Positions 37,641 to 61,796 of a DNA stretch of 64,000 bases are shown piece after piece (the stretch's first letter is position 1; the number at the start of each line of letters is the position of its first letter). The DNA lies in contig OX637393.1 of the NCBI GenBank assembly GCA_951799425.1, positions 34,587,244-34,651,243 on the forward strand, read 5' to 3'. Both the position numbers and the translations under genes were made by a program. The notes beneath the pieces are model-generated. The model did no database searches. It was given only the letters and a program-made list of their open reading frames with translations, and was not told where the DNA came from. The stretch comes from Ilex aquifolium. Lineage: Eukaryota > Streptophyta > Magnoliopsida > Aquifoliales > Aquifoliaceae.

Positions 37641-38187
37641 AAGCTCTCCAAGTTACAGATCTTACTAGCCCGTCCTACGGTTTTACATAATTCAACTTAC
37701 TACATCTTTTGCTAGAGACTTGTGGTTACAATGGTGTTTGACATGCTGAGAAATCTTAAGATTTTCCTGCTATATACTTCACTCTAAAATCCCCCAATCC
37801 ATTTGTCTATCAAAAAAAAACATACAAGGTGTTTACTCTATTAGAAAACAAATTATTGGGTTACTCCATGTGAAGCATAAAATTCAAAATTTAGGGTTGA
37901 TTTTTGTCTCACTAAAGGCTACTAGATTTGCATGGATTTGAACAACTATGAATTATTTTCAATATACTTACGAATGTAACATATTATTTTGTAAATAGTT
38001 ACTACATTTTGTGTCCTCATGTGCAAGAAAAAATCAAAACTATAACTCACAATTATTCATGTATAACAACGTGTGCATCAACTAATTAGACAGTAAAAGA
38101 AGTATTTTACTTTTTAATTTTGCTGCCAAAGCTAACAGTAAAATAAAGAAAATTTGAAAAAAAAATACAACCAAATTGACATCAACA

Positions 38188-38376
38188 ATGTAGGATCTTA
38201 AAATAATCAAGTACTTCAAATAACCTCGCACACACAATTAATCAAAAGAAAACAAAGTAAGAAATAAAATCAAGGAATAATAAATATGAAATTGACGAAT
38301 ACGTCAATGCTTAACGTCAAAACAAAGAAATTCTCTCATCATAGCTTCTACCGAAGGTTTTTTTCCATTACAATAA
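38188..38376 (-). repeat. 3' LTR of copia 2, part A
   Basis: Matches the 5' LTR segments 48515-48598 and 49800-49903 (cttaaaataatcaag, cacaattaatcaaaag, gacgaatacgtcaatgc, cttctaccgaaggttttttt). It is interrupted after caataa by the Helitron. Confidence 0.92.
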
Positions 38377-38679
38377 TGTATACTATTAATAAAAGTACCT
38401 AACATAAAAAAAAAAAAATTGATTCACTATTTTGCGCTTATAAGAAACTATAAAGGCTAATATACCCTTTTGTATTTAAATATGCAGATTACCATTATAT
38501 CCCTATATACTTAAATAACAAACTAACCACTAACATATCATGTAAATATCTATCTTTGCAAAACTTTTAGATGGTCATGTTACTCTTAACAGAATGTATA
38601 AAATATTTTTTTTTCAAAACCCCAATATTAATACACATCGACAACTTCATTGATACAATATCATCTCTGATGCCAAAAA

Positions 38680-38701
38680 ATTGATATATATATATATATA
38701 T
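38680..38701 (+). repeat. (TA)n tract at the left viral junction
   Basis: An alternating ta run directly precedes the first pararetroviral sequence. Confidence 0.85.
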
Positions 38702-38963
38702 AATCTCTTCTTTTGGATTTATTCTCTTCGGATTCAATTTCTTTGACAAGTTTACTTATGTTAGGCATGAAGACTAAATTATTTTCCCTTTTAATCATTA
38801 GAAGTTGATGATTAACTGGGGCAAGGCTTTCTAAATCACTAGCAGAAGGAGATGGGGTGAAGTCTTCTTCTTCTTCCTTATCTTCTTCTCTAGACTCATG
38901 TTGTGGTATACTCTGTTGGGGAGTATAGAAATGTTTGCTAACTTGAGATGATGAATTATCGAT
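38702..38963 (-). repeat. Direct duplication of an EPRV segment
   Basis: About 262 bases are nearly identical to 39462-39725 in the same orientation (ggcatgaagactaaattatt, ggagatggggtgaagtcttc). Only a handful of substitutions separate them. Confidence 0.9.
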
Positions 38964-39000
38964 TACTTGCTCAATTGTTTTTACTTGTAATTCAGATTTA

Positions 39001-39135
39001 ACGGTTTATAGTTAATGACTAATCTTGGGGTGCCTCTTTCTAATTCTGCACTTTTGTTGACATAGAAAGCTGGGCATGACCAAGGAGACTTGCTTTTCCT
39101 AATGATACCATTTTTGAGTAATTCAGAAATCTCTT
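39001..39135 (-). repeat. Inverted copy of part of the viral RT
   Basis: The reverse complement of this stretch matches about 42065-42204 in the RT block (shared landmarks aaaaatggtatcattaggaa and caccccaagattagttatta). It shows that one viral fragment was joined in inverted orientation. Confidence 0.88.
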
Positions 39136-39189
39136 TTTTGTGTTTTCCTATTGTAATTAGGCTTTGGTTAGTAAAATTGTTTTGTTCTA

Positions 39190-39891
39190 CTATTTCTTTT
39201 CAGAATCACTAGTGGGGATTTTGAAAGGAGGTGCTGTGACTTCAGTGTTTTTATGGCTGAAGGTGATAGTCTCTATCGGATGATGACTTGAGGATACTGT
39301 TGTAGCATCAGAAGTCTTCCATTTGTGTTTAGTAACTACTTTTACTTCTTTGTGACAAGATTCTATGTAATCAAAGAATGCAATTTCAGACTCAATTTTA
39401 TGCATTAGTTTGATCCATCCTATCCTAATTTCATTTCTTTGTTTATTATCAAATCTTTGAAAATAATCTCTTCTTTTGGATTTATTCTCTTCGGATTCAA
39501 TTTCTTTGACAAGTTTACTTATGATAGGCATGAAGACTAAATTATTTTCCCTTTTAATCATTAGAAGTTGATGATTAACTGGGGCAAGGCTCTCTAAATC
39601 ACTAGCAGAAGGAGATGGGGTGAAGTCTTCTTCTTCTTCCTTATCTTCTTCTCTAGACTCATGCTGTGGTATACTCTGTTGGGGAGTATAGAAAGGTTTG
39701 CTAACTTGAGATGAGGAATTATCGATTCCTTTTAGTTTAAGTCTACATTCTATTTCTTTAGCTAAGTCTTTATCTCTTCTAGATATGCTGGAATGAGACT
39801 CAGATTTTCTGCCTTCATTGATTTGAATAGGTTTATTAAATGATCTGCTTGATCTACTGGATCTTGCAGAGTCAAAGGAGATCCTTACCAA
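39190..39891 (-). pseudogene. EPRV polyprotein segment downstream of movement domain
   Basis: A 233-residue open frame: a Ser/Arg-rich start (ARSSRSSRSF), an acidic low-complexity middle (EEDKEEEEDF) and a segment with FDYIESCHKEVKV. It follows the movement-protein block with only one stop between. This layout is seen in caulimovirid polyproteins between movement and coat regions. I recognise no enzymatic motif. It is a fragment of a non-functional copy. Confidence 0.65.
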
Positions 39892-39903
39892 TCCATCAGA
39901 TAA

Positions 39904-40305
39904 CTACTGGATATTTTCTAAGTTCTCTGTGGTATTTTCACTATCTTTGTTATAATTTTCATTTTCAACTGTCCAGGATTCTGGTAGTTGAACATCTTTC
40001 CATAGTAGTCTTTTTGGGACTTGGATATTTGATTCACTAGTACTACTTTGTATTAGCAAAGTGCTATCTCTAGGACTTTTCTTTAATGCATGCACATTCA
40101 GGTTTGTGGTAATGCATTTGTAGTAAATCCTATAGATAAGTACTAATGATTGGGTTTCTTTTACCAATCTGGTGATTTGTCCAGAGAGTTCTACACCTAA
40201 AGTCAAGGCTTTTATGGTGTGTTTACAATCTAAACTTAAGGTAAAATCTGGAAAGCAGTTGAAATCTACTGGTCCGTTATGAAGACCAGCTGGTGTCTCT
40301 TGATT
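39904..40305 (-). pseudogene. EPRV movement-protein C-terminal fragment
   Basis: Minus-strand reading from about 40305 has VDFNCFPDFTLSLDC, then in the same frame LSGQITRLVKETQSLV and NIQVPKRLLWKDVQLP, resembling the C-terminal half of caulimovirid movement proteins (30K superfamily, cell-to-cell transport through plasmodesmata). The N-terminal half is missing. At its upstream edge (near 40310) it is fused to coat-protein-like sequence, an order not expected in an intact genome. Confidence 0.65.
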
Positions 40306-40314
40306 CTTGGGTGA

Positions 40315-40740
40315 GATAGTTGTCCCACCAACTTCTTAAGACTCCTGTAAAACCAGAGGTGATTAAATCAGCTAGTTCTAGTTCAGTGTTGTCCAAGTTA
40401 TTAACATAACTATTGATAACCATAGACATGTGGTTAATCTTATTAAGGATTTCTTGTTCATTTAATCCATCTATGTTCCATTCATAGAGTTTATTGGATT
40501 GAACTGAAAATTGGTTACTTATATTTTTTTCTTCAAATTGAAGATCAGGTGGTGTTGGTAATTTTTACTAGTGCTAGTTGGATTAACTTTGGAAAAGGTC
40601 AACTTATTAATTTGTTGATTTTCAAAAGCTTCTTCCAGTTCTTTGATTTCAGGATCAGAAGAACTTTCTATGTTACTGGGTTCGGAATCAGAAGTTTGGT
40701 TGATAACTGTTATTTGAGATGGTTCTACCTTAATTTCCAT
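40315..40740 (-). pseudogene. EPRV coat-protein-like fragment
   Basis: The block 40740-40519 is an acidic, low-complexity region. Just downstream, in another frame, are YEWNIDGLNEQEILNKI and SGFTGVLRSWWDNYL (about 40500-40320), typical of the capsid-forming core of caulimovirids. The zinc-knuckle part is absent. A stop/frame break separates the two blocks. Confidence 0.7.
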
Positions 40741-40741
40741 C

Positions 40742-40870
40742 TTATGAATCAGTTTCTCAATCTTCTGGATTTGAATGCTATCTTTTACTGAGATTCCTAA
40801 TTTACTTCTATCTTCGTGGATACACCATCAGTATCAGTTGTACAAGGACAAACGAGGTGATTTCTGTGAA
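40742..40870 (-). repeat. Inverted, internally deleted copy of the EPRV protease region
   Basis: The reverse complement contains cgtttgtccttgtacaa joined directly to ctgatactgatggtgtatcc. These two stretches lie about 80 bases apart in the plus-strand protease block (43405-43510). So this is a second, inverted and deleted copy. Confidence 0.8.
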
Positions 40871-41009
40871 CAATATGGTCTCCCTTCAGGTAATTGGATT
40901 AGAGGTTTCTCTAATTTTTTACTTGAGGATGGTCTGATTTCATCAATTTTGGTTTCAATTTTATCTAACTGTTTTCCAATTGTAATTAGGCTTTGGTTAG
41001 TAAAATTGT

Positions 41010-41640
41010 TTTACCAGTTGCAAAGGTTCTTAGGTTCCCTAAACTATGTTTCTGACTTTTATCAGAATCTTAGGAAAACCGTCAAACCTTTGTATGACAG
41101 GCTCAAAGGAAATCCTTCTCCTTGGACTCCTGAGCATACATCCATAGTTAAACAAGTCAAGCAGTTCATCAAAACTTTGTCTTGTCTTGGTATCCCATCA
41201 GTTGATTCTTTTAAAATCATCCAAACTGATGCCTCAGATATTGGTTATGGAGGTATCCTTCTGCAAAGGGAGTCTCCTAACTCTCCAGAGCAAATTGTCC
41301 AGTTCCACTCAAGAATCTGGAATAAAGCACAAGCAAATTATAGTACTATTAAAAAAGAGATTTTATCTATTGTCCTATGTATCTCAAAATTCCAGGATGA
41401 TATACTAAATCAAAAATTTTTAGTAAGCGTAGATTGTAAATCAACAAAATATGTTTGGAAAAAAGATGTACAAAACATTGCTAGTAAGCAAATTTTTGCC
41501 TAATGGCAATCTATTTTAAGTATTTTTTATTTTGACATAGAATATATTAAGGGCAGTAATAACTGCGTCCCTGATTTCCTAACCCGTGAATTTTTGCAGG
41601 AACCCCTTGGCGGACAGGAAATCCACTAAACCTGGTACTT
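41010..41640 (+). pseudogene. EPRV RT tail and RNase H fragment
   Basis: Plus-strand reading begins with the RT connection (LQRFLGSLNYVSDFYQNL) and continues into RNase H with TDASDIGYGGIL, NYSTIKKEILSIV (the conserved Glu helix) and VSVDCKSTKY (second Asp). After a stop at 41501 the frame continues as IEYIKGSNNCVPDFLTREF. It lies upstream of the RT core at 41965, the reverse of the normal RT-then-RNase H order, so the locus is rearranged. Confidence 0.85.
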
Positions 41641-41964
41641 CCTCTAAAAACCCGAGGAAGGACACTGATAAACATAAACAATTAGCCTTACCTAGCCCAA
41701 ATCCAAAGCCCAGTCAACTACCTAGCCAAACACTGCAGTTGCAATAGCAAATAGATATCAACCTCTTGGTAGGCCAGTAGCCCAACCAACCATTGTCAAC
41801 CCAAGTACTTTCCTTCAAATGGCCCAACAAGGCCCAATTAGTTCATCTAGCCCTTATATGGCCCAACCTTTATCCACTGTTAAACCTGACCAGTTAGTCA
41901 ACCCATATTAGAAACAGAAGTTTATTCTGACCTTCCTACAGCCTTTTGGCATAGGAAACAACAC

Positions 41965-42714
41965 ATGGTAAAACTTCCGTATATTAAAGGATTTAATAAG
42001 ACAAATATCCCAACTAAATCCAGACCCATCCAAATGAACCATGAAGTAATGAAAATTTACAAAAAAGAGATTTCTGAATTACTCAAAAATGGTATCATTA
42101 GGAAAAACAAGTCTCCTTGGTCATGCCCAGCTTTCTATGTCAACAAAAGTGCAGAATTAGAAAGAGGCACCCCAAGATTAGTTATTAACTATAAACCGTT
42201 AAATGTTGTTTTGGAATGGATCAGGTACCTGATTCCAAATAAGCAGGATTTAATTAAAAGACTTCATAATGCAGTAATATTTTCAAATTTTGATTTGAAA
42301 AATGGTTTCTGGCAGATCCTTATATCCCCAGAAGATAGATATAAAACTACATTTACAACACCCTTTGGTCATTATGAGTGGAATGTAGTGCATTTTGGAT
42401 TAAAAAATGCACCCTCTAAATTCCAGAACATAATGAATGAAATCTTTAATTCCTTAAGTTATTTTTCTATAGTCTATATAGATGATATTCTCATCTTCAG
42501 CAGGTCTATAGAAGAACATTGGAAACACCTTAATGCATTCCTTGAGACTGTTAGACACAATGATCTAGTCATCTCATCTAGCAAAATTAAGTTGTTTCAA
42601 ACCTCGGTTAGATTCCTTGGATATAATATCCATCAGTCAACTATAGTTCCCATCAGCAGGTCTATCCAATTTGCAGATAAATTTCCTGATGAAATCACAG
42701 ACAAAACCCAGTAG
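41965..42714 (+). pseudogene. EPRV reverse-transcriptase core fragment
   Basis: A 249-codon open frame with ELLKNGIIRKNKSPWSCPAF, PRLVINYKPLN, FSNFDLKNGFWQI (first catalytic Asp), FGLKNAPSKFQ and YIDDILIFS (the catalytic Asp pair). The polymerase motifs are present in order and unbroken here, but the frame lacks the protease before it and RNase H after it, and the stop comes at 42712-42714. It is a remnant, not an autonomous gene. Confidence 0.9.
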
Positions 42715-42759
42715 GATAGAAGATCCATAATTAAAATTAAAATATATCAAAAACCTCAA

Positions 42760-43650
42760 AGATCTGTTTGTCAAAAAAGACACTAAACAATCTTTTGGTG
42801 AAAAACAGTTAATCAGTTTTAACAAAACTTTAGAAAGATTCAGTAAGGAGAAAAAGAAAGAAATCACCTTACAAGATCTTCAAAGTGAAGTTAATAAACT
42901 TAAGCAAGAAATAAAAGACTTGAAAGCACAAGACAGAATATTTGTTGAAACTTTAAGCCTTTTACAAACTACAAATCTTGAGCCAACGGATTCTAATCCT
43001 GAAAAACAGCCTCAAGAACAATCTGATGATTATCAAAGAACACATTTACAGCGGATACCTGTAACCTCCACCTCTTTAGTGGACACTTCGGGTGTAACGA
43101 AGCTGTCATCTAATGATGAGTGTTCGCAAACGGATAATGATAATAGAATAAATTTGGTTAACAAAATTAGTTTTTAAAAATGGTATTCCCAAGTAAAAAT
43201 CATAATTGATAATGATTTATAGCTTGACACTGTTGCCCTTATTGACACTGGTGTAGACGTAAACTGCATCCAGGAAAGGATTATACCAACCAAATATTAT
43301 CAGAAAACCATTGAAAGATTAAGTTCAGTCAATGGTAGTAAAATGAATGTCAAATACAAGTTACCAAATGTACATATCTGTCAAGACAATGTTTGTTTTA
43401 AAACATCGTTTGTCCTTGTACAAGATATGACTGATGAAGTCATCCTTGGATTACCATTCATCTACCTGTTGTACCCATTTACAACTGATACTGATGGTGT
43501 ATCCACGAAACCATTTGGTCACTCTGTAACTTTTAGGTTCATAACTAAACCTGAAGAAAAAAACTTAAGACAACTTAAAGATCATTCAATCTCTAAGTAT
43601 GTTAGATTAATTAAGCAGAAAATTAATCAAGTGAAATTTCTCAAGGAATA
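42760..43650 (+). pseudogene. EPRV coiled-coil and aspartic-protease fragment
   Basis: The first part (about 42770-43177) is rich in Lys/Glu/Gln with a heptad-like QDLQSEVNKLKQEIKDLKAQ segment. A stop at 43177 precedes an aspartic-protease-like domain with ALIDTGVDVNCI (catalytic DTG; the usual Ala after DTG is Val) and DEVILGLPFIYLLYP (43435-43470), the ILG strand of the fold. It ends at 43651. In this family the protease normally precedes RT; here it follows it. Confidence 0.8.
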
Positions 43651-43689
43651 AATTAACCATAAAAGAATACAAGAACAGTTAACAAATCC

Positions 43690-43930
43690 AATCTTAATTG
43701 AAAGGAGGCATAACCATTTTTGCTGGAGTTGCTGGGGATAAGGTTGCTGGCACCGCTACTGGGGTTGGAACCTTGACTGGGAACTCCTGTTTTACCTGGG
43801 CAATGATCTTGTCTTGCTGGAATCTAGGCCACCATTTGACATAAAAATGTCAAGCAACATTGTTAGCAATAATTTCCCATTGCCATTTACAGATCCAGGG
43901 AACTCCATATCTACTATTAATAAGACCGGA
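43690..43930 (-). pseudogene. EPRV fragment at the right edge
   Basis: Minus-strand reading gives YGVPWICKWQWEI and FYVKWWPRFQQDKII with one stop between. This PW..KW and YVKWW pattern is familiar from the N-terminal capsid region of some caulimovirid polyproteins. It marks the right limit of recognisable viral DNA. Confidence 0.55.
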
Positions 43931-43953
43931 AACTGACTCTCATGTATACTAGG

Positions 43954-43985
43954 TTTATATATATATATATATATATATCGATATA
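43954..43985 (+). repeat. (TA)n tract at the right viral junction
   Basis: An alternating ta run just beyond the last viral sequence, mirroring the tract at 38680-38701. Confidence 0.85.
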
Positions 43986-44130
43986 TTTTTCTCTTCATCC
44001 ACAATACAAACAATTTAAGCATGATAAACATGAGATAATATATAATTTAGCTATATAATTAAATTTTTATGTATTTTATCAAATGTTTTAATGAAAAATT
44101 TCTCGTGCAATGTACGTGGTGCATTATTAG

Positions 44131-44311
44131 TAAAGACCAAAAAAAAAAAATTTTTGACTTCTAATCATAAACTAATAACTATTATTTTAAACTCAAACAA
44201 ATTGGAATACCATTTTGAGTTATAGTCCATGTGGACAAAAATTCCTAAACTAACTAGAAATCTAATATTAAAAGATAATTATTTAATAAGAGTTTGGGTC
44301 AAACTCCAATA
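44131..44311 (-). repeat. 3' LTR of copia 2, part B
   Basis: Aligns with 49905-50073 of the 5' LTR (aaaagataattatttaataag, ggaataccattttgagttat). Confidence 0.92.
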
Positions 44312-44349
44312 GCCTCCCTTAAACCAAACTCTTCAATCTTGATCATCCC

Positions 44350-47300
44350 CATCATCCGCTTCAATTTCGTAATGCATCTGATTTAAGCGGTTTAGTTAAA
44401 ATATCTGCAATTTGATCCTCGGATCGACAATACAAAATTTCAATCTCGCCATCAATAGTCAAGTCACGAATATAATAATATTTGACATGAATATGCTTGG
44501 TCTTCCCATGAAAAACTGGATTCTTTGACAAAGCAATAGCTAACTTATTATCACAAAAAATCTTTGAAGGAATTTTTTGTGCATGCTACAAAAATCTAAG
44601 CATACAATGTAACCACACTGCTTGAGTAGCACAATTGGTGGCTGCATTATACTCTGCTTCAGGGGTAGAAAAAGTAACAACTTGGTGTCTCTTCGAAGAC
44701 CAGAAAAAAATTTCTGAACCAATTTGAAAACAATATCCTAAAGTACTTTTGGCTTTTTTCACATCATCTTTGAAGGAATTTTCTGTCCATGCTGCAAAAA
44801 TCCAAGCATACGATGTAACCACACTGCTTGAGTAGCACAACTGGTGGCTACATTATACTCTGCTTCAAGGGTAAAAAGAGCGACAACTTGGTGTTTCTTC
44901 GAAGACCAGGAAAAATTTTTTGAACCAATTTGAAAACGATATCCTGAAGTACTTTTTGTTTTTTTCACATCACCTCCCTAATCATTGTTTGTATACCCAA
45001 TCAATCAATCACAAGAACCAGTAGGAGAATAAAAAATATCATCACTCTGAGTACCTTTAACATACTTCAAAATCTTTTTTGCTGCTTGCAAGTGGGATTG
45101 ATATGGAGACTCCATATACCTGCTGATATATCCAACTCCAAAAAAAATATCAGGTCTAGTGGAAGTCAAATAACATAAACTTCCCACCAACCGTTTAAAA
45201 TATATGGGATTCACCAACTCACCATTCCAATCTTTACCCAATTTCAATATTTCTTCAGCCATAGTTAAAATAGGATTACAAGAATCCATTCTGAATCATT
45301 TAAGGATATCCCTAGCACACTTCTGTTGGGAAATAAAAATTTCACTATCTGTCTTATTCACTTCAATCCCAAGAAAATAAGACATTAAAACTATATCAGT
45401 CATCTCAAATTGAGAAATCATTGTCTCCTTGAATTTCTCAATTAACTTCAGATTATTCCCTGTGAAAATAAGATCATCCACATACAGATACACAATAATA
45501 ATATCTCCCTGCAAATTAGTTTTAACATACAAAGTGCATTCATAGGGACATCTTTGAAAATCATTCTCAACAAAATAAGAATCAATCTGAGTGTACCAAA
45601 GCCTTTTTTAACTTATAGGATTTCTTTTCATCCCCTTTATTCACATAACTAGTAAGCTGCTCAACGTAAACTTCTTCCTCAAGATCACCATTCAAGAAAG
45701 CAGATTTCACATCCATTTGAAATATCTTCCAAAAATTATTAGCAGCAAGAGAAATAATCCTACCTAGCAACAACAGCAAAAACCTCAAGATAATCAATAC
45801 CTGGCTTTTGTTTGTAACCCTTGGCTACTAACCTCGTTTTGAAGAGACACACCTCTCTATTTGGCTTGTATTTGGTCTTGTACACCTATTTAACTCCAAT
45901 AGCTTTCTTTCTCTTAGAAAGAGAAATAAGCTCCCATGTATTATTTTTCTCAATGGCATGAATTTCTTCATCCATTGCTTTCACCCAATGTTTCTCCCTA
46001 CTTGCATCACTAAAATAAACAGGATCACAATCTGCATATAAAGCAAAATTTATCAAATCCTCATCTGAAAGATCAATGTTAGTGCCAATCATTTAATCCT
46101 CCAATCTAGCTGGCATGTGTCGTTCACCCTGTGAATGCCTAGATGACTCTAGCTGCGGGGGATTGAACAATTGGGGACTGTTCAACTGACTGATCACCAA
46201 CTGAATCATCAACATCAAAAAGAACAAGTGTAGTTGACTTGTCTTCCTTTTGGGACCAATCCCAAGCACACTGCTCATCAAAATTGACATCCCTACTAAT
46301 AATCATTTTTCTTGTGATGAGATTATAAAGCTTGTACCTCTTTGTTACTAAACTGTACCCAATAAAAATACATTTTTCAGCTTTATCCTCAAGCTCTTTC
46401 CTGGGTGGATCAGGAACATGGGCAGAGGCAATACAACCAAACACCTTCAAATGTTGAATATCAAGCTTCTAACCACTTTAAATCTCATAGGGAGTTTTTC
46501 CCTTAAAACTTCTGGTGAGAGACATGGACAACATAAACAGCACAAAAAACAGCTTCTATCCAAAAATTTTTAGGCATAGTTTTAGATTTCATCATGCATC
46601 TAACCATATCCATAATAGTTCTATTTTTCCTCTCTTCCATACAATTCTGTTGTAGAGTATATCTAACTATCAACTGATGCTTAATACCATAATTCCTCAA
46701 AAAAATCATCACAAACCATATATTTCTGACATTTGTCAATCCTCAAAACTTTAATTTTTCTCCCACTCTACCTTTCAACATAAGTCTTAAAATATTTAAA
46801 TGTATCATATGCATCAAATTTATTTTTCAAAATATACACCTATGTCTTTTTGCTAAAATCATCAATAAAAGTAATAAAATACCTACTCCCACCTTTGGAA
46901 AGAACTTCAACAGAACACAAATCAGAGTGAATCAAATCAAGAGGTCTTTTTGCTTGCCAAGCTTGTTTATTAGGAAAAGGGTTCTAATGTTTTTTTTCTC
47001 AAAACACAAGTCTCACAAACTTGACTAAGAATATTAATAGTAGGCAAACCAAAAACCAATTTTTTTCGGGAAAGAAAATTTAAACTATGAAAATTTACAT
47101 GCCCAAACTGCATATGCCATAACTAATTATCACCAGAAATCTCATAACTAAAGTAAGGTAAATTCTGAAAATTAATTTGTAAAGGGAACAATGTCATATT
47201 TACCTTTTCTATTAGTCCCCTGCATCTGTCATTGATTGTACAAATTCCATTAAAAATTCTCATATCATACCCTTTTTTTGACATCTGCTCCATACTCAAT

Positions 47301-48500
47301 AAATTGTGACTAAGACCGAGAATATAATAAACATCTGAAATAGCATTCAAAGACCCATCTTTTAACTTGATAGAAATTTTATATTTTTCCTTTATGGGGA
47401 TGGTTGAAGCATTCCCAAATTTAATGTATTATTGAACAAATGCATTCATCAAATACAGTGAACATCTCCATATAACCACACATGTGATTACTGCAGTCTG
47501 AATCCAGATACCACTTATTCTTTTGAACATCATTCACTGCACTATCCACCAAAAACAAAGTCTCTGATATTATCATTGCCCTCTACAATTTTAGCATGAT
47601 AATTCTTATTATCGAGTCTCCTTAATTTGTAGCAGTCCTTTTTATAGTGCCATAATTTTTCACAATAGTAGAACTTTACCTTGGATTTATCACATTGTTC
47701 ACCCTAATTATTACCTTTGTATTTTTCTCCACCATATCTGTTTTGCCACATACATTGGTTATTTGAATACTGATACTTCTGATTTGATTGAGATTTATTG
47801 TGGGACTCATAATTCTCTTTCTTGAAATTTGCCCGAGTCTACAAGGCTTCTTCTCCTAAAATCTCAGTCTTTTCTTTCAATCTTTGTTCATGGGCTTGCA
47901 AAGAACCCATCAACTTATCAACTGTCAGGAAATCAAGATCCTTTGACTCCATGATAGCTGTGACAACATACTCGAACCTCATTGATAAGGTCTAAAGAAT
48001 TTTCTCCATAACTTGGAGATCCTTCACATCCTTGCAGTTGACTCTCATCTGATTGACAATAACCAACGTCTGCGAGTAATAATTAGATATACTCTTTGAT
48101 TTTTCCATATAAAGAAGTTCAAATTGTCTGTGTAGGGTTTGCAACAGAACCTTTTTCACCTTGTCTTGTCCAATATAACAATTAATCAAGACATCCCATG
48201 TAGCCTTTGCCGTCGAAACATGAGTAATCTTGTCATAAATTGACGAATCAATTGCTCCATAAATATACATCAATGTTCTATTGTTTTTCTTTCGTTTACT
48301 TCTCAATTCATCCTTTTGGGCTTTTGTGTAAGTTAATAGATCTCCGGAATCTGTGGACCCGTTTGTCACAATATCTGAAAAAACCATGACCTTAAAAAAC
48401 AACTCCATTTGTATTTTGCAATATTGAAAATTTGACCTCCCGTCAAATTTTTCATCCAGGCATTGAACAAACTTATTCCTATTTGTCATCTCGATAATTG
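44350..48500 (-). pseudogene. Ty1/copia element 2 gag-pol, degenerate
   Basis: From high to low coordinate: UBN2-type gag (48500-47992); a zinc knuckle damaged at the first Cys (YYCEKLWHYKKDC, about 47640-47690); protease with YLDSDCSNHM (about 47500; the catalytic DSG is DSD); pre-integrase (47350-47123); integrase (47000-46500) with its C-terminal zone (46450-46139); RT start (46092-45886); the RT block with MDVKSAFLNGDLEEEVYVEQ (45797-45582); the YVDDLIFTG catalytic block (45532-45296); and RNase H (45289-44350). Stops and frame changes separate the blocks. RNase H contains a 206-bp tandem duplication. Not functional. Confidence 0.9.
44561..44972 (-). repeat. 206-bp tandem duplication inside copia RNase H
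   Basis: Two adjacent copies start at 44561 and 44767 (tctttgaaggaatttt...). Each encodes an SSK(R/K)HQVV..TLEAEY-type RNase H segment. They differ by about 10-15 substitutions. Confidence 0.9.
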
Positions 48501-48514
48501 GCTCTGATACCAGA

Positions 48515-50073
48515 TATAAGATCTCAAAATAATCAAGCACTCAAAATGATCTCACACAAACAATTAATCAAAAGAAAATAAAGCAAGAAAGAATGAAGGA
48601 AAATTTTCATCTACACCCCCTCTAAATAGGTCTATCTTTAACGATACCCCTTGTCTTTTCTGAAATTTCACTGCACTTCCTTCTAATTTATATGTCCTCT
48701 TCACCTAGACCCCCTACCGTAACCACCTGGTACTGACCATCAGAAAAGTGTTGATGTCATACCAAAATTTTTATTAAATGCCAATTTTACCTTTCTTATT
48801 CCCCATGAAACCCTTGTTTCACCCTCTTTCTCTCTCTCTCTCATGCGTCAACAACCCAATCACCTAGCTGCAAAAACAACGTGGCAATGAACCCAAGCCA
48901 CTGGTCCTAGCATGAATCGGTGAAGAATGATACAAAAAATCCACATAAAAAATATAGTGGTATGAATCGGTGACACAGTAAAAAAAAAAATTTAAAAATT
49001 TAAAAAAAATTCAGTGATATCGTACGCTTAAACATAATACAAGGAAAAAATTTAAAATAATTTTTTAAAAAAAAAATTAAAAAAAACCGGTGACATCGTA
49101 CGCCTAAACATAATACAAGAAAAAAATAGTTTTTTTTTTTAAAAAAAAATTTAAAAAAACCGTTGACATCGTACGCTTAAACATAATACAAGAAAAAAAA
49201 ATCAAAACAAGTTTTTTAGAAAAAAAATTAAAAAAAAAAACCGGTGACATCGTACTCTTAAACATGATACAAAGAAAAAATTCAAAATAAATTTTTTATA
49301 TGTAAACTCTACAGAGAAGGGTATTTGTGTCATTTTTCTTGCTTGTACCATTGGTGGATTTATACCAGCAAATAATACCACCTGGTAAGTGGTATTCATT
49401 AAAGTCATGTACAAGGGATAAAAGTTATTGTACAAAACGGGTCGGTATTGTAACCCGAAAAATAGTACTGCACATAAAATGACAACCAAACAAGGTAATA
49501 AGTGGGCCCGATGTACTATTTACTCTATCCCACTTACTAATATCTCATATATCGGCAAACAAACATGTTCATACTTATAGGAAATAGGAATATGTATTTA
49601 TATATAGTTTAATGAAAAATAATTGGTGAATATGTAAATCTTTATAAAATTCATGGGTAAAATGGTAAAACGTGTGTTTCCATCACGTCTGTTAGCCGAC
49701 CAACACTGACAGGGAAGGTCAATGAAATTTCAGAAAAGGTAAGGGGTGTCGTTGAAGATAGGCCTATTTAGAGAGGGTGTAAATGAAATTTTCTCAAAAA
49801 TAAATTATGAAATTGACGAACACGTCAATGCTCAACGTCAAAACAAATGAATTCTCTCATCATAGCTTCTACGGAAGGTTTTTTTGCCATTACAATAATA
49901 AAGATCAAAAAACAAATTAACTTCTAATCATAAACTAATAACTAGTGTTTTAAACTCAAACAAATTGAAATACCATTTTGAGTTATAATCTATGTGGACA
50001 AAATCTCCTAAACTAACTAGAAATCTAATATTAAAAGATAACTATTTAATAAGAGTTTGATCAAACTCCAACA
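48515..50073 (-). repeat. 5' LTR of copia 2, interrupted by a MITE
   Basis: LTR parts are 48515-48598 and 49796-50073. It preserves the uninterrupted ttacaataataaagatc site where the sister LTR holds the Helitron. Confidence 0.9.
48599..49795. mobile_element. Long-TIR Mutator-like MITE with internal repeats
   Basis: The left end gaaaattttcatctacaccc...ctaaataggtctatctt and right end ...gataggcctatttagagagggtgtaaatg are inverted repeats over about 90 bases. Inside, gacatcgtacgcttaaacat occurs four times (about 49017, 49093, 49165, 49245; spacing 72-80 bp). No clean TSD was identified. No coding capacity. Confidence 0.75.
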
Positions 50074-50078
50074 AACAA

Positions 50079-50880: not shown

Positions 50881-50975
50881 CAACAATTTAAACTACTTGA
50901 TAATCTATAACCGAATGGAGATAATAAAACTAATCTTCACAGTGTTCTTCTACTTCTCTTCTATCTTCTTTAGAC

Positions 50976-53209
50976 ATGGCTGAAAATCCAGCTCCCATAG
51001 AAACAGTGTCAGTCACAGTTACTGAAGAACAGTGTATATCTAAAGAAGAAAACCCTGAGCCTGCAATGACCAGAGCTAAAGCAATTCCGATGAATCGTAT
51101 CATACTTCCATTAACCATTTTCTCTCTTCTTCTCTCTCTTCCAGTTCTTTCCTCAGTGGTATGGCTACTATACAATGGTCAATACGATTGTGAAGACCTC
51201 CTGAGATTGCCAAAGCTACAAGTTGGCATTGTCATTGGCCTGATCTTCCTCTTTGTTGTCAGTAATGTTGTAGTCTACCTGAGATCTCGATTTCCAGTCC
51301 CGGGACTTCTCTTGGTTATGGTACCACTGATAGTGATGCTTATCGTAGGTCTTGCCCTTGTTGGAGCTTACAAGATGGAGTCTGAGACCATACCAGGTTC
51401 ACCTATGTGGCTCAAAATGAAGGTGCTTGACAACAACAACAATTGGAACAACATCAAATCTTGCATATATGACACAAGAACATGTGAAGATTTGATCTCC
51501 AGATCGTATACAGTCAAGGCTTACGATTTCACGACGAGTAAATTGTCCTCCATTGAGGTAACATCATGCACATAATTGTTTAATTTCCTGTTTTATAATT
51601 TATTAGATTGACTTACTTGAGATGCTAAGTGAGATAATCTTTAATCAGCAATGCTATAGGGACCTAGTTAATTTGGCACATGTGGGATGAATTGTGGTGT
51701 AAATCCCAAGAAACTTAAGATGAAGAAGAAAAACTCAGTTCTCTTAATCCAGAGTAGGGTTGACCATTCTACACAAGACCCATGAGTACTATACAAAATC
51801 GACACAGAATGAACGCATTTGAGTTTAGCTTTAGTGAATTTGGACTGTAAAAGAGTAGACTCGTTAAATCCGTCAAGTATATGGATTGACATAAATCCGG
51901 TTAAATATGACACGAACCCAACTAAATATGTTAAAACACAACTTATACACGACATGAAATTGACACGATATGATTTGAATACGATATGACTTGAATACGA
52001 ATCCAATTACACATGATTTTTAATGGATTGGGTATGACTTGAATAAATTTTGGTACAATTCGGCCTATTAACAGCTCTAATCCAGAGGCATGAGTGCAGA
52101 GATAGATTGCCTTCAGAAATAACCTCAGGGTTGGCGGTTTCAACCCCCACCATAGGCATAGGGGTAACCTTATGGGGATTTCCTCGAACTTGTCTCTGGT
52201 ACGTGTGTTTGGGCGCATGTGCGCACCCAAGATTTGTCCATCTTAACTATGGATCAGGTTTTCTTGTCATCAAATAATTTGATACTACGTTAATTAGCCA
52301 TGCTTATGAAACAATGGGTTCGGGTTTTCCTAACAAATTAACCAAGTGACCTCCCATTGCGATGTTTAACCATGTGATTGGTTGTGTATATATGTATATC
52401 AGGAAGTGATTAATTTCTTGCATATACAATTAAACTTTGTTAAGAGTTTCTAATACCAATCATAAAATTAAATGTGTATTAGGGGACGAACATTGATGAA
52501 TCACATGTTCGGGTAACATAAATAATCTCTCTCCGAGTAGAGTTGAGATTGTTTATCTCTAACCTTCTCTAGACCCCAATGATGCGAGGCTGTGCAATAG
52601 CCTGTCCATCTGCACTAAATTCATCGTTATTTCATAGAGATGAAGTTTAAGTAAAATATAGCAGATTTCATCGTGAATGTAAGTCCAAACATAGTTACAC
52701 GATGAAGGTTGTGAGGCCTGCAATGCGGCCACATCAACACAATTCAATTTTGCGTGAACTGAAAACCTAAAAGTTGCAAGGATGATGAGGCCGTTTCTTG
52801 GCTACAAAATTCTTATCGTACGACTATGTTTGCATGCAATGCTTACAATCTATACATCATTAATTACTTATGCATATATAAATGTTTTCTCGTTTGCTAC
52901 TGTTTTTTTCAGTCTGGGTGTTGCAAACCACCCTCAAACTGTGAAATGGAGTATGTGAACGCCACATTTTGGATAAAAGGAGAATCAGTGGACTATGGCT
53001 CGAATCCATATGACAGTGACTGCGATTTGTGGCAAAACAAAGAAACAGCATTATGCTACGACTGCCATGCTTGTAAAGAAGGGTTTCTAAGAACACTGCT
53101 AGGCAAATGGGTGAAGCTCGGGGTTTTCCTAGTTCTTATGTCGTTGTTGCTCATAATTTCGCACCTCTTGCTATTCGTCGCAACAATGTGGGAACAGTAT
53201 GGAGGATAG
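50976..53209 (+). CDS. Tetraspanin family protein (2 exons)
   Basis: Four-pass membrane protein of the plant tetraspanin family, which organises plasma-membrane microdomains. Exon 1 is 50976-51557 (194 codons) and exon 2 is 52913-53209 (98 codons plus stop). The intron runs gtaaca...ttttttcag in phase 0. The protein is 292 residues. Membrane segments are near residues 41-66, 81-102, 108-132 and 261-286. The large extracellular loop (133-260) carries GCCKPP at 196-201, the plant tetraspanin signature, plus Cys163, 170, 204, 231, 242, 245 and 248 and a possible N-glycosylation site, NAT, at 210. The start has a good context (gacATGG). The N-terminus before the first helix is about 40 residues, longer than usual and acidic; Met31 would give a more typical length. 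No breaks seen. Member number within the family not assigned. Confidence 0.93.
51558..52912 (+). other. Tetraspanin intron with a degenerate repeat
   Basis: The 1355-bp intron contains a stretch rich in gacac(g)a / aatacga motifs (about 51890-52070), the kind found in a common class of plant MITE. A similar stretch is at 53880-54005. No gene inside. Confidence 0.6.
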
Positions 53210-60291: not shown

Positions 60292-61458
60292 TCATCCCCC
60301 CCCCCCCTCATCTTCTTCATCATCTTCAGCCTCAGAAACTTCCTCCTCCTCATCCATTCTGGAGGTTGAAGGAGCAGCAGGAACTTCTGGGACAGCTTTC
60401 TCAGGAAATGTGTGTACATACATCTCCTTCAACATTGTTGCCATTTCCTGAACTGAGGTCTTGATTTCATGCGCTGTCTTTTCCAGGGCACCAAGTCTCT
60501 GATGGGTTGAGCGTTTCAAAACAGGCTTGAATGGCATGGTGGGCACAGCAGGTGCAACATCCTCTTCAGAGTCAGATTGAGCCCGATCCCCACGGCTCAT
60601 GGCCTTCCTTTTCTGACTGCTGGCCTTGCCAATAGCTCCAAACTCAGGGGAGGTCATTTTTTCCAGTCCATAGCCCTTAACCTTAGCATGGTCACAAAGT
60701 CGGGTAACCAAGCTTCCGTATGGTAGGTTGGCCATCAGTTTCTCAGTGGTGGCAAAGTCCTTCATCACATCCCAAATGATAAGGGCAAAATCCATTGTTT
60801 TGCCCGACACGACGGTATCCAGGAGGTTCAACTTTTCCACATTTGGTTTCTTCTCTGCGAATTTTGGGTAAAGATTATAGTGAAGGAGTTTGTTAAGAAG
60901 CCCATAAACATGCTTCAACCCCCCACTCTGAAAGGTTCCCCTGAACGTAGCAGGATCCTCATACATCAACTCAACAAGATCCTCTTTAGTCTTCGGCTTA
61001 CCCATTTTGCGAGGATAAACGGGTGATCTGGATGGGGGTCTCTGGTAATCCCCAAGGCATGTGGCTATGACATCAGGGGTCACCACAATAATCTTACCCC
61101 TAACATTTGCTCTCAACACTCCCTCATCATCATTCTCGATGAAATTTAGTGAACGGTAAAATTCCCTCACCATGGCCAAATTGTATCCCACAACCTCCTT
61201 AAACCAGAATTGCATCCCATGCCCCTCAATGATTTTCACAGCAGGATGAATGGGGGAAAGGGAAAGCCTATCCAAAAACCGTTCACAAGTCACATTCTTA
61301 CCGTCAATCAACTGGCGTCGAGCATCCCTCTTGGCCTTCTTTCTCTGCTTCTCAAGGTCCCCACTCGATCCTTCTCCACTTCTTTTGCGGCTGGCAGAAC
61401 CCATGGCAGGAGGAGAACTGGGCTCTGGTCCTGATCCGACCATCTTGGTGCGAGGCAT
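60292..61458 (-). CDS. Putative plant transposon protein (retrotransposon ORF), intact
   Basis: A 388-residue uninterrupted ORF. The N-terminus is basic (KRSGEGSSGDLEKQRKKAKR, residues 25-44). The middle has FWFKEVVGYNLAMVREFYRSL, VLRANVRGKIIVVTPDVIATCLG and LLNKLLHYNLYPK, the pattern I know as the 'putative plant transposon protein' domain found in Athila-type and related LTR elements. The C-terminus is an acidic tail (DEEEEVSEAEDDEEDEGGGG). I see no transmembrane helix or catalytic motif. It lies just upstream of the polypurine tract and LTR, where Athila elements keep their extra ORF. The Gly run at the end comes from a C/G homopolymer (60298-60308), so the exact stop could be length-dependent. 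Its function is not known. Confidence 0.75.
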   Translation of the reverse strand: MPRTKMVGSGPEPSSPPAMGSASRKRSGEGSSGDLEKQRKKAKRDARRQLIDGKNVTCERFLDRLSLSPIHPAVKIIEGHGMQFWFKEVVGYNLAMVREFYRSLNFIENDDEGVLRANVRGKIIVVTPDVIATCLGDYQRPPSRSPVYPRKMGKPKTKEDLVELMYEDPATFRGTFQSGGLKHVYGLLNKLLHYNLYPKFAEKKPNVEKLNLLDTVVSGKTMDFALIIWDVMKDFATTEKLMANLPYGSLVTRLCDHAKVKGYGLEKMTSPEFGAIGKASSQKRKAMSRGDRAQSDSEEDVAPAVPTMPFKPVLKRSTHQRLGALEKTAHEIKTSVQEMATMLKEMYVHTFPEKAVPEVPAAPSTSRMDEEEEVSEAEDDEEDEGGGG

Positions 61459-61796
61459 TGTGTAATGAATGGAGAGAATAGGAGGAACTTGAGATTCGGC
61501 TATAAGGGTAGGGTAAAATGGAGGAGGACTGTGGAAAATAATCTAGCTCAAGGGGATTTTATAGACTGAGGGGGAAGAAAAAGGGTTTTGGACCCTTGGA
61601 GTTCCATCGGGTAAGGGGGAAGGAGATAGGGGAGGAGTACATGGGGAGAGTGAAGAGGGAAAGAGAAAGGGTTCTTGACCCTTGGAGTGCCGTCGGGTAG
61701 GGGGGAAGGAGATAGGGAAGGAGTAAATGAGGGAAATGAAAGGTAGAATTTAGGTTTTGAAATTAAAAGCCCTAAAAAAAAATTTTCGTCAGGCAA

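Follow-up and report, generated by a model that had tools for sequence, protein, structure and literature searches.

Nested insertions in Ilex aquifolium: endogenous caulimovirid DNA within a Helitron-like shell in a copia long terminal repeat

Rearrangement of viral pieces has been described for endogenous caulimovirids, and a model has been put forward in which they integrate as filler DNA at (TA)n repeats (PMC10377300). Florendoviruses are reported to be biased towards such repeats, which lie near 14% (grapevine) to 51% (rice) of their large loci; in related rice species some (TA)n sites are empty, so that the repeat predates the virus (PMC4241990). According to PMC4683698, PMC6591975 and PMC2702305, Helitrons insert between A and T without duplicating the target, start with 5' TC, end with 3' CTRR and have a hairpin 8-15 nt before the end. 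Here we describe a locus of Ilex aquifolium (assembly GCA_951799425.1, contig OX637393.1, positions 34,587,244 to 34,651,243 of the forward strand; 64,000 nt, hereafter the window) in which one long terminal repeat (LTR) of a copia element is interrupted by an insert whose ends resemble those of a Helitron and whose filling is, as judged by sequence comparison, mostly a scrambled endogenous caulimovirid, altered in order and present in both orientations. Pieces for reverse transcriptase (RT), RNase H, protease and movement protein, (TA)n on both sides and transposon-rich surroundings are all shared with known endogenous caulimovirids; unlike in those, the landing site can here be placed in a Helitron-like shell within a copia LTR, the sister LTR serving as the empty site. 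The shell shares with short non-autonomous plant Helitrons the A-T target, the absence of duplication, the AT-richness, a 3' TAG (same three sources) and possibly a hairpin about 12 nt before the 3' end, but differs from them in having TG for TC, TTAG for CTRR and a weak hairpin. The locus is a well-resolved nesting of known kinds; no nesting of Helitron and pararetrovirus was apparent among the literature titles and abstract openings listed, full texts aside.

The host copia is a genuine element, complete in outline, with paired LTRs, a 5-bp target site duplication (TSD; AACAA at 38184-38188 and 50074-50078, positions counted by hand) and a gag domain (PF14223). In its TSD and gag it resembles other Ty1/copia elements, and nothing unusual was seen in it; from its motif, we take TGGTATCAGAGCC (48500-48512, minus strand) to be a primer site of the methionine-tRNA type. 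The insert of 5,754 bp (38377-44130) is seated between A (38376) and T (44131) of the LTR. Owing to a single T common to both junctions, bounds of 38378-44131 are equally valid. With this one shared T, the insertion is taken to lie between A and T, at a junction where a 1-bp T duplication is indistinguishable from the T of an A-T target. The joined flanks, CCATTACAATAA and TAAAGACC, match the sister LTR, which is uninterrupted at this site (CCATTACAATAATAAAGATC, 49868-49925), in the LTR alignment, which places the empty site between A 49898 and T 49899 with 0 bases gained or lost. The first-pass annotation had proposed a base-exact interruption between these two letters, to be checked by an LTR alignment free of extra lost or duplicated junction bases, and the comparison bears it out; the ends TGTATACTATTAATAAAAG and ATTATTAG, with a TG start and a TTAG end, also read as it had given them. 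Its description of the event as precisely dated was overstated, because the sister LTR brackets the Helitron-like insertion only as later than the copia.

The filling of the insert was characterized by a Pfam scan of 10 of its 32 listed open frames, five of which gave matches above the cut-off: RT (PF00078, E = 4.2e-34), aspartic protease (PF00077, 6.5e-8), DUF7746 (3.7e-24), DUF7588 (5.7e-14) and RNase H (PF17919/PF17917). Frames 42731-43177 and 40519-40827 had sub-threshold matches only, and no Pfam match at E <= 0.1 was found for frames 38981-39199, 39904-40335 and 43694-43849. A viral movement protein (PF01107) was nevertheless recognized through the relatives of 39904-40335, and the RT and RNase H are of the caulimovirid type. 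At E <= 1e-3 the database contains 967 relatives of the RT frame, the best 120 of which were mapped back onto the window to position the pieces; the closest among the 120 listed is 74% identical, comes from almond and bears an unrelated source name. Among solved structures, the one nearest in sequence is 8r0s ('Enzymatic polyprotein', 7.7e-58), which we take to be from cauliflower mosaic virus, followed by 4ol8 (1.7e-44) and 7q5b of Ty3-G (1e-43). A Ty3-type LTR retrotransposon was considered as the source of the RT and rejected, because the E-value of 8r0s is over 13 orders of magnitude lower than that of the next structure and because of the movement-protein piece. On the plus strand the order is RNase H, RT, protease, the usual order being protease, RT, RNase H; the movement-protein and DUF7746 pieces, the latter presumably the capsid region, lie on the minus strand. 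The viral block, perhaps florendovirus- or petuvirus-like, is placed here at the level of the family Caulimoviridae. In viral contigs (IMG/VR), no caulimovirid relative was confirmed with a single sequence (8 pattern matches) or with an alignment (51).

The block is bounded by TA tracts. Those at 38684-38701 and 43956-43977 are the only (TA)7+ tracts in the window, and about 91% of the insert lies between them. At the left edge, similarity to the second viral copy (39463) begins at 38700, where the tract ends. (TA)n at the integration site, frequent although not universal in endogenous caulimovirids, is present on both sides. The GC content is 25% and 23% in the outer arms (the right one measured on 43980-44130) and 34% in the viral block. 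A (TA)n-bounded block between arms of lower GC suggests that the carrier was a shell measuring some 0.5 kb and containing a TA tract, which the virus most likely entered. The first-pass annotation had taken the whole insert as one Helitron and missed the caulimovirid fossil that makes up most of it; what may be Helitron is only the shell.

How far the shell itself can be assigned to Helitrons depends on its ends. Of the hallmarks listed above, the A-T target is present and target duplication is absent, the joined flanks equalling the sister LTR. The hairpin was assessed against the canonical form (GC-rich, about 16-20 nt, 8-15 nt before the 3' end). If G-T pairs are allowed, the best stem at such a distance lies 12 nt from the end; its arms are 8 nt long and include one mismatch and one G-T pair. 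The hairpin reported earlier at 14 bases before the end corresponds to CGTGC-AAT-GTACG, with one mismatch. TATACTATTAATAAAAG may resemble plant Helitron 5' ends, a likeness that no pattern or literature search confirmed. The Helitron 5' end pattern had 0 matches in viral contigs. A 3' pattern of plant type matched a single viral contig, whose sequence is rich in GC and does not look like plant DNA, and four genome contigs, all bacterial records; all five were taken as chance. No support was found in the literature for the plant Helitron end or hairpin strings, or for non-canonical TTAG ends in plants. No Rep or helicase domain occurred among the frames scanned, RepHel being expected of autonomous members only. 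A second Helitron-like 5' start at 43910-43926 (TCTACTATTAATAAG, with a canonical TC after A) was considered as a nested or alternative start; it has three mismatches to the pattern, and at least two matches of such quality arose in 4 of 100 shuffles. The right TA tract follows 46 bases later; the neighbouring frames look viral by eye and have no database match, and the start is probably a chance match.

Several observations weigh against a Helitron shell that received the virus in its TA tract. The insert starts with TG instead of TC, and its end, TTAG, agrees with CTRR in three of four bases. Two changes among the six strictly conserved end bases would be expected in only about 3% of cases (a hand estimate assuming 5% per site, in a copia whose LTRs differ by 7-11%). 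A stem as good as the best one accompanies 9 of the 262 (C/T)TAGT sites of the window, insert end included, and the same holds for 53 of 1471 (C/T)T(A/G)(A/G)T sites and for 318 of the 8029 T sites sampled; the minimum-energy fold prefers another stem, 5 nt from the end, and is no better than shuffles (z = -0.27, 70 of 200 shuffles as good). Within the 64-kb window, blastn (E <= 1e-5) and a scan for the ends returned only the self-match of the insert. At the right edge, mapped viral homology stops near 43720 and the last piece, of 51 aa (43694-43849), has no database relative, so viral homology does not extend over the whole of the 91% that the tracts enclose. Finally, the (TA)n link is a bias and not a rule (14-51% by species). 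Because TC and CTRR are missing and the hairpin is borderline, we do not file the shell as a canonical Helitron. We nonetheless think it quite likely that it behaves like a short one: the A-T site speaks for the Helitron insertion proposed earlier, and the ends most likely derive from a Helitron. The TG and TTAG could reflect either decay or a family trait.

The relative age of the layers was estimated from divergence. Over all 364 ungapped columns the two LTRs show 41 differences (K 0.123), these columns including some next to the insert of the sister LTR where the alignment is poor; the clean right-hand part has 19 differences in 268 columns (K 0.075). Between the viral duplicates, 9 of 488 bases are different (1.8%; 95% interval 0.8-3.5%), a lower proportion than between the LTRs (Fisher p = 4e-4 for the clean part, 8e-9 for all ungapped columns). 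By this measure the copia would be several times as old as the virus, provided that the duplicates were identical at integration; were they derived from different viral molecules, the virus would be younger still, and gene conversion would bias the estimate the opposite way. Substitution rates in plants are 6.5e-9 to 1.3e-8 per site and year, and ages calculated from these by hand, indicative only, are about 0.7-1.4 million years for the virus and about 3-9.5 million for the copia. The lower divergence of the duplicates fits the order copia, then Helitron, then virus. The Helitron step, which has no date of its own, precedes the virus on the best reading only.

Probably, then, although we say so with some reserve, a copia was entered in its LTR by a short non-autonomous Helitron, which later received virus DNA in its TA repeat. 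The copia would have inserted with its 5-bp target duplication; an AT-rich non-autonomous Helitron of about 0.5 kb, carrying a TA microsatellite, may then have entered the 3' LTR between A and T. The exactness of that insertion is seen against the sister LTR, and the A-T site and end motifs point to a Helitron as the agent. Subsequently, a break in the microsatellite may have been closed by end joining that took up caulimovirid fragments as filler, which would account for their mixed order and orientation and for the TA tract now being in two parts. We observe the viral block and its TA edges; published cases suggest the repair mechanism. It is most likely that the insert reached its present form by at least two events; it is a fossil, and we claim no working element.

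Could the virus instead have arrived with the Helitron? The viral pieces, taken up by capture or through a virus insertion elsewhere, would then have been present before the LTR was entered, and the whole 5.75 kb would have moved together. Helitrons can take up multiple gene fragments (PMC2702305), and the entire insert has a single clean A-T junction. However, (TA)n on both sides of the block is a reported mark of direct caulimovirid insertion (PMC4241990), and scrambling is itself usual in endogenous caulimovirids (PMC10377300). We consider such joint movement unlikely, although its variant with a virus insertion at another locus is compatible with both the TA edges and the scrambling. That a Helitron lineage with genuine TG...TTAG ends moved the unit plus viral cargo seems very unlikely; if true, Helitrons can spread endogenous pararetrovirus fragments across a plant genome.

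Other explanations dispense with the Helitron. A double-strand break in the LTR could have been repaired by a patchwork of AT-rich host and viral DNA with a one-base T microhomology. The two missing end motifs and the weak hairpin would suit this, and the viral part is a patchwork of the end-joining type. Yet no LTR base was lost on either side, break repair without loss being unusual; the target is A-T; the end motifs may be likened to those of plant Helitrons; and the virus is bordered by TA tracts that are set about 0.3 kb and about 0.15 kb into the insert, away from the LTR junction. We regard repair of this kind as improbable, too. Hardly credible, in our view, is another short DNA transposon with a 1-bp target duplication (T). 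The junction permits such a duplication, and by eye the two ends show some short, imperfect similarity in inverted orientation (ACTATTAAT at the left end; ACTAATAAT at the right end, reverse strand), but no inverted repeat of at least 20 nt, the length range listed, joins them. Such a 1-bp duplication is not known to us from any plant superfamily.

The coordinates of the features are collected in Table 1.

Table 1. Features of the copia element, the Helitron-like shell and the viral block (positions in the window).
Feature	Position	Strand	Basis
Whole insert between A and T, 5,754 bp	38377..44130	+	LTR comparison
Shell left arm, begins TGTATACTATTAATAAAAG, GC 25%	38377..38683	+	sequence
Shell right arm, TTAG as last bases; weak hairpin (CTCGTGCA-A-TGTACGTG) 12 nt from end	43978..44130	+	sequence, stem scan
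(TA)n tract, left edge of viral block	38684..38701	.	sequence
(TA)n tract, right edge of viral block	43956..43977	.	sequence
Copia 3' LTR, split at 38376/44131	38189..44311	-	alignment with sister LTR; TSD AACAA
Copia sister (5') LTR with empty site; own insert about 48599-49795	48515..50073	-	LTR alignment
Copia internal region, broken frames	44312..48514	-	gag by PF14223 on 47992-48540; later pol by eye
Viral piece, direct duplicate of 39463-39731, 263/269 identical	38700..38968	-	self-comparison
RT piece, inverted duplicate of 42059-42204, 144/146 identical	38996..39141	-	self-comparison, relatives mapped
Open frame with PF24496 (DUF7588)	39190..39903	-	Pfam
Movement-protein piece	39904..40335	-	6 of 11 database relatives bear PF01107
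Open frame with PF24925 (DUF7746)	40277..40564	-	Pfam
RNase H piece (PF17919, PF17917)	41015..41602	+	Pfam, relatives mapped
RT piece (PF00078)	41905..42720	+	Pfam, relatives, closest structure 8r0s
Aspartic protease piece (PF00077), after RT instead of before	43238..43720	+	Pfam, relatives mapped

The copia shows two further features. The sister LTR has a 1.2-kb insert of its own (48599-49795), about 100 bp from the empty site and not touching it, with terminal inverted repeats of about 80 nt that are 86% identical (48601-48680 and 49713-49792), an internal 73-bp tandem array at 48994-49298 and no clear target duplication worked out. In the internal region, a 206-bp tandem duplication (44560-44972, 90% identical) falls in a part read by eye as RNase H. 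Elsewhere in the window, open frames at 50934-53209, starting about 0.9 kb past the right LTR of the copia, look tetraspanin-like by eye; two of them were scanned and matched no Pfam family at E <= 0.001. An open frame of 416 aa at 60292-61542 carries PF20167, a putative plant transposon protein. Two pairs of direct repeats, 28083-29009/32993-33884 (93% identity) and 15034-15607/18348-18920 (97%), are probably LTRs, flanking frames that by eye are gag-like.

Taken as a whole, the locus is a readable stratigraphy, in which the sister LTR places the Helitron-like insertion after that of the copia, while the division of the TA tract and the viral duplicates suggest the virus as the youngest layer. 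Were other copies to show TG...TTAG ends, the rules by which annotation programs recognize Helitron ends would need widening. Loci of this kind permit a base-level check of the (TA)n and filler-DNA model of caulimovirid integration, and provide age brackets for past infection.

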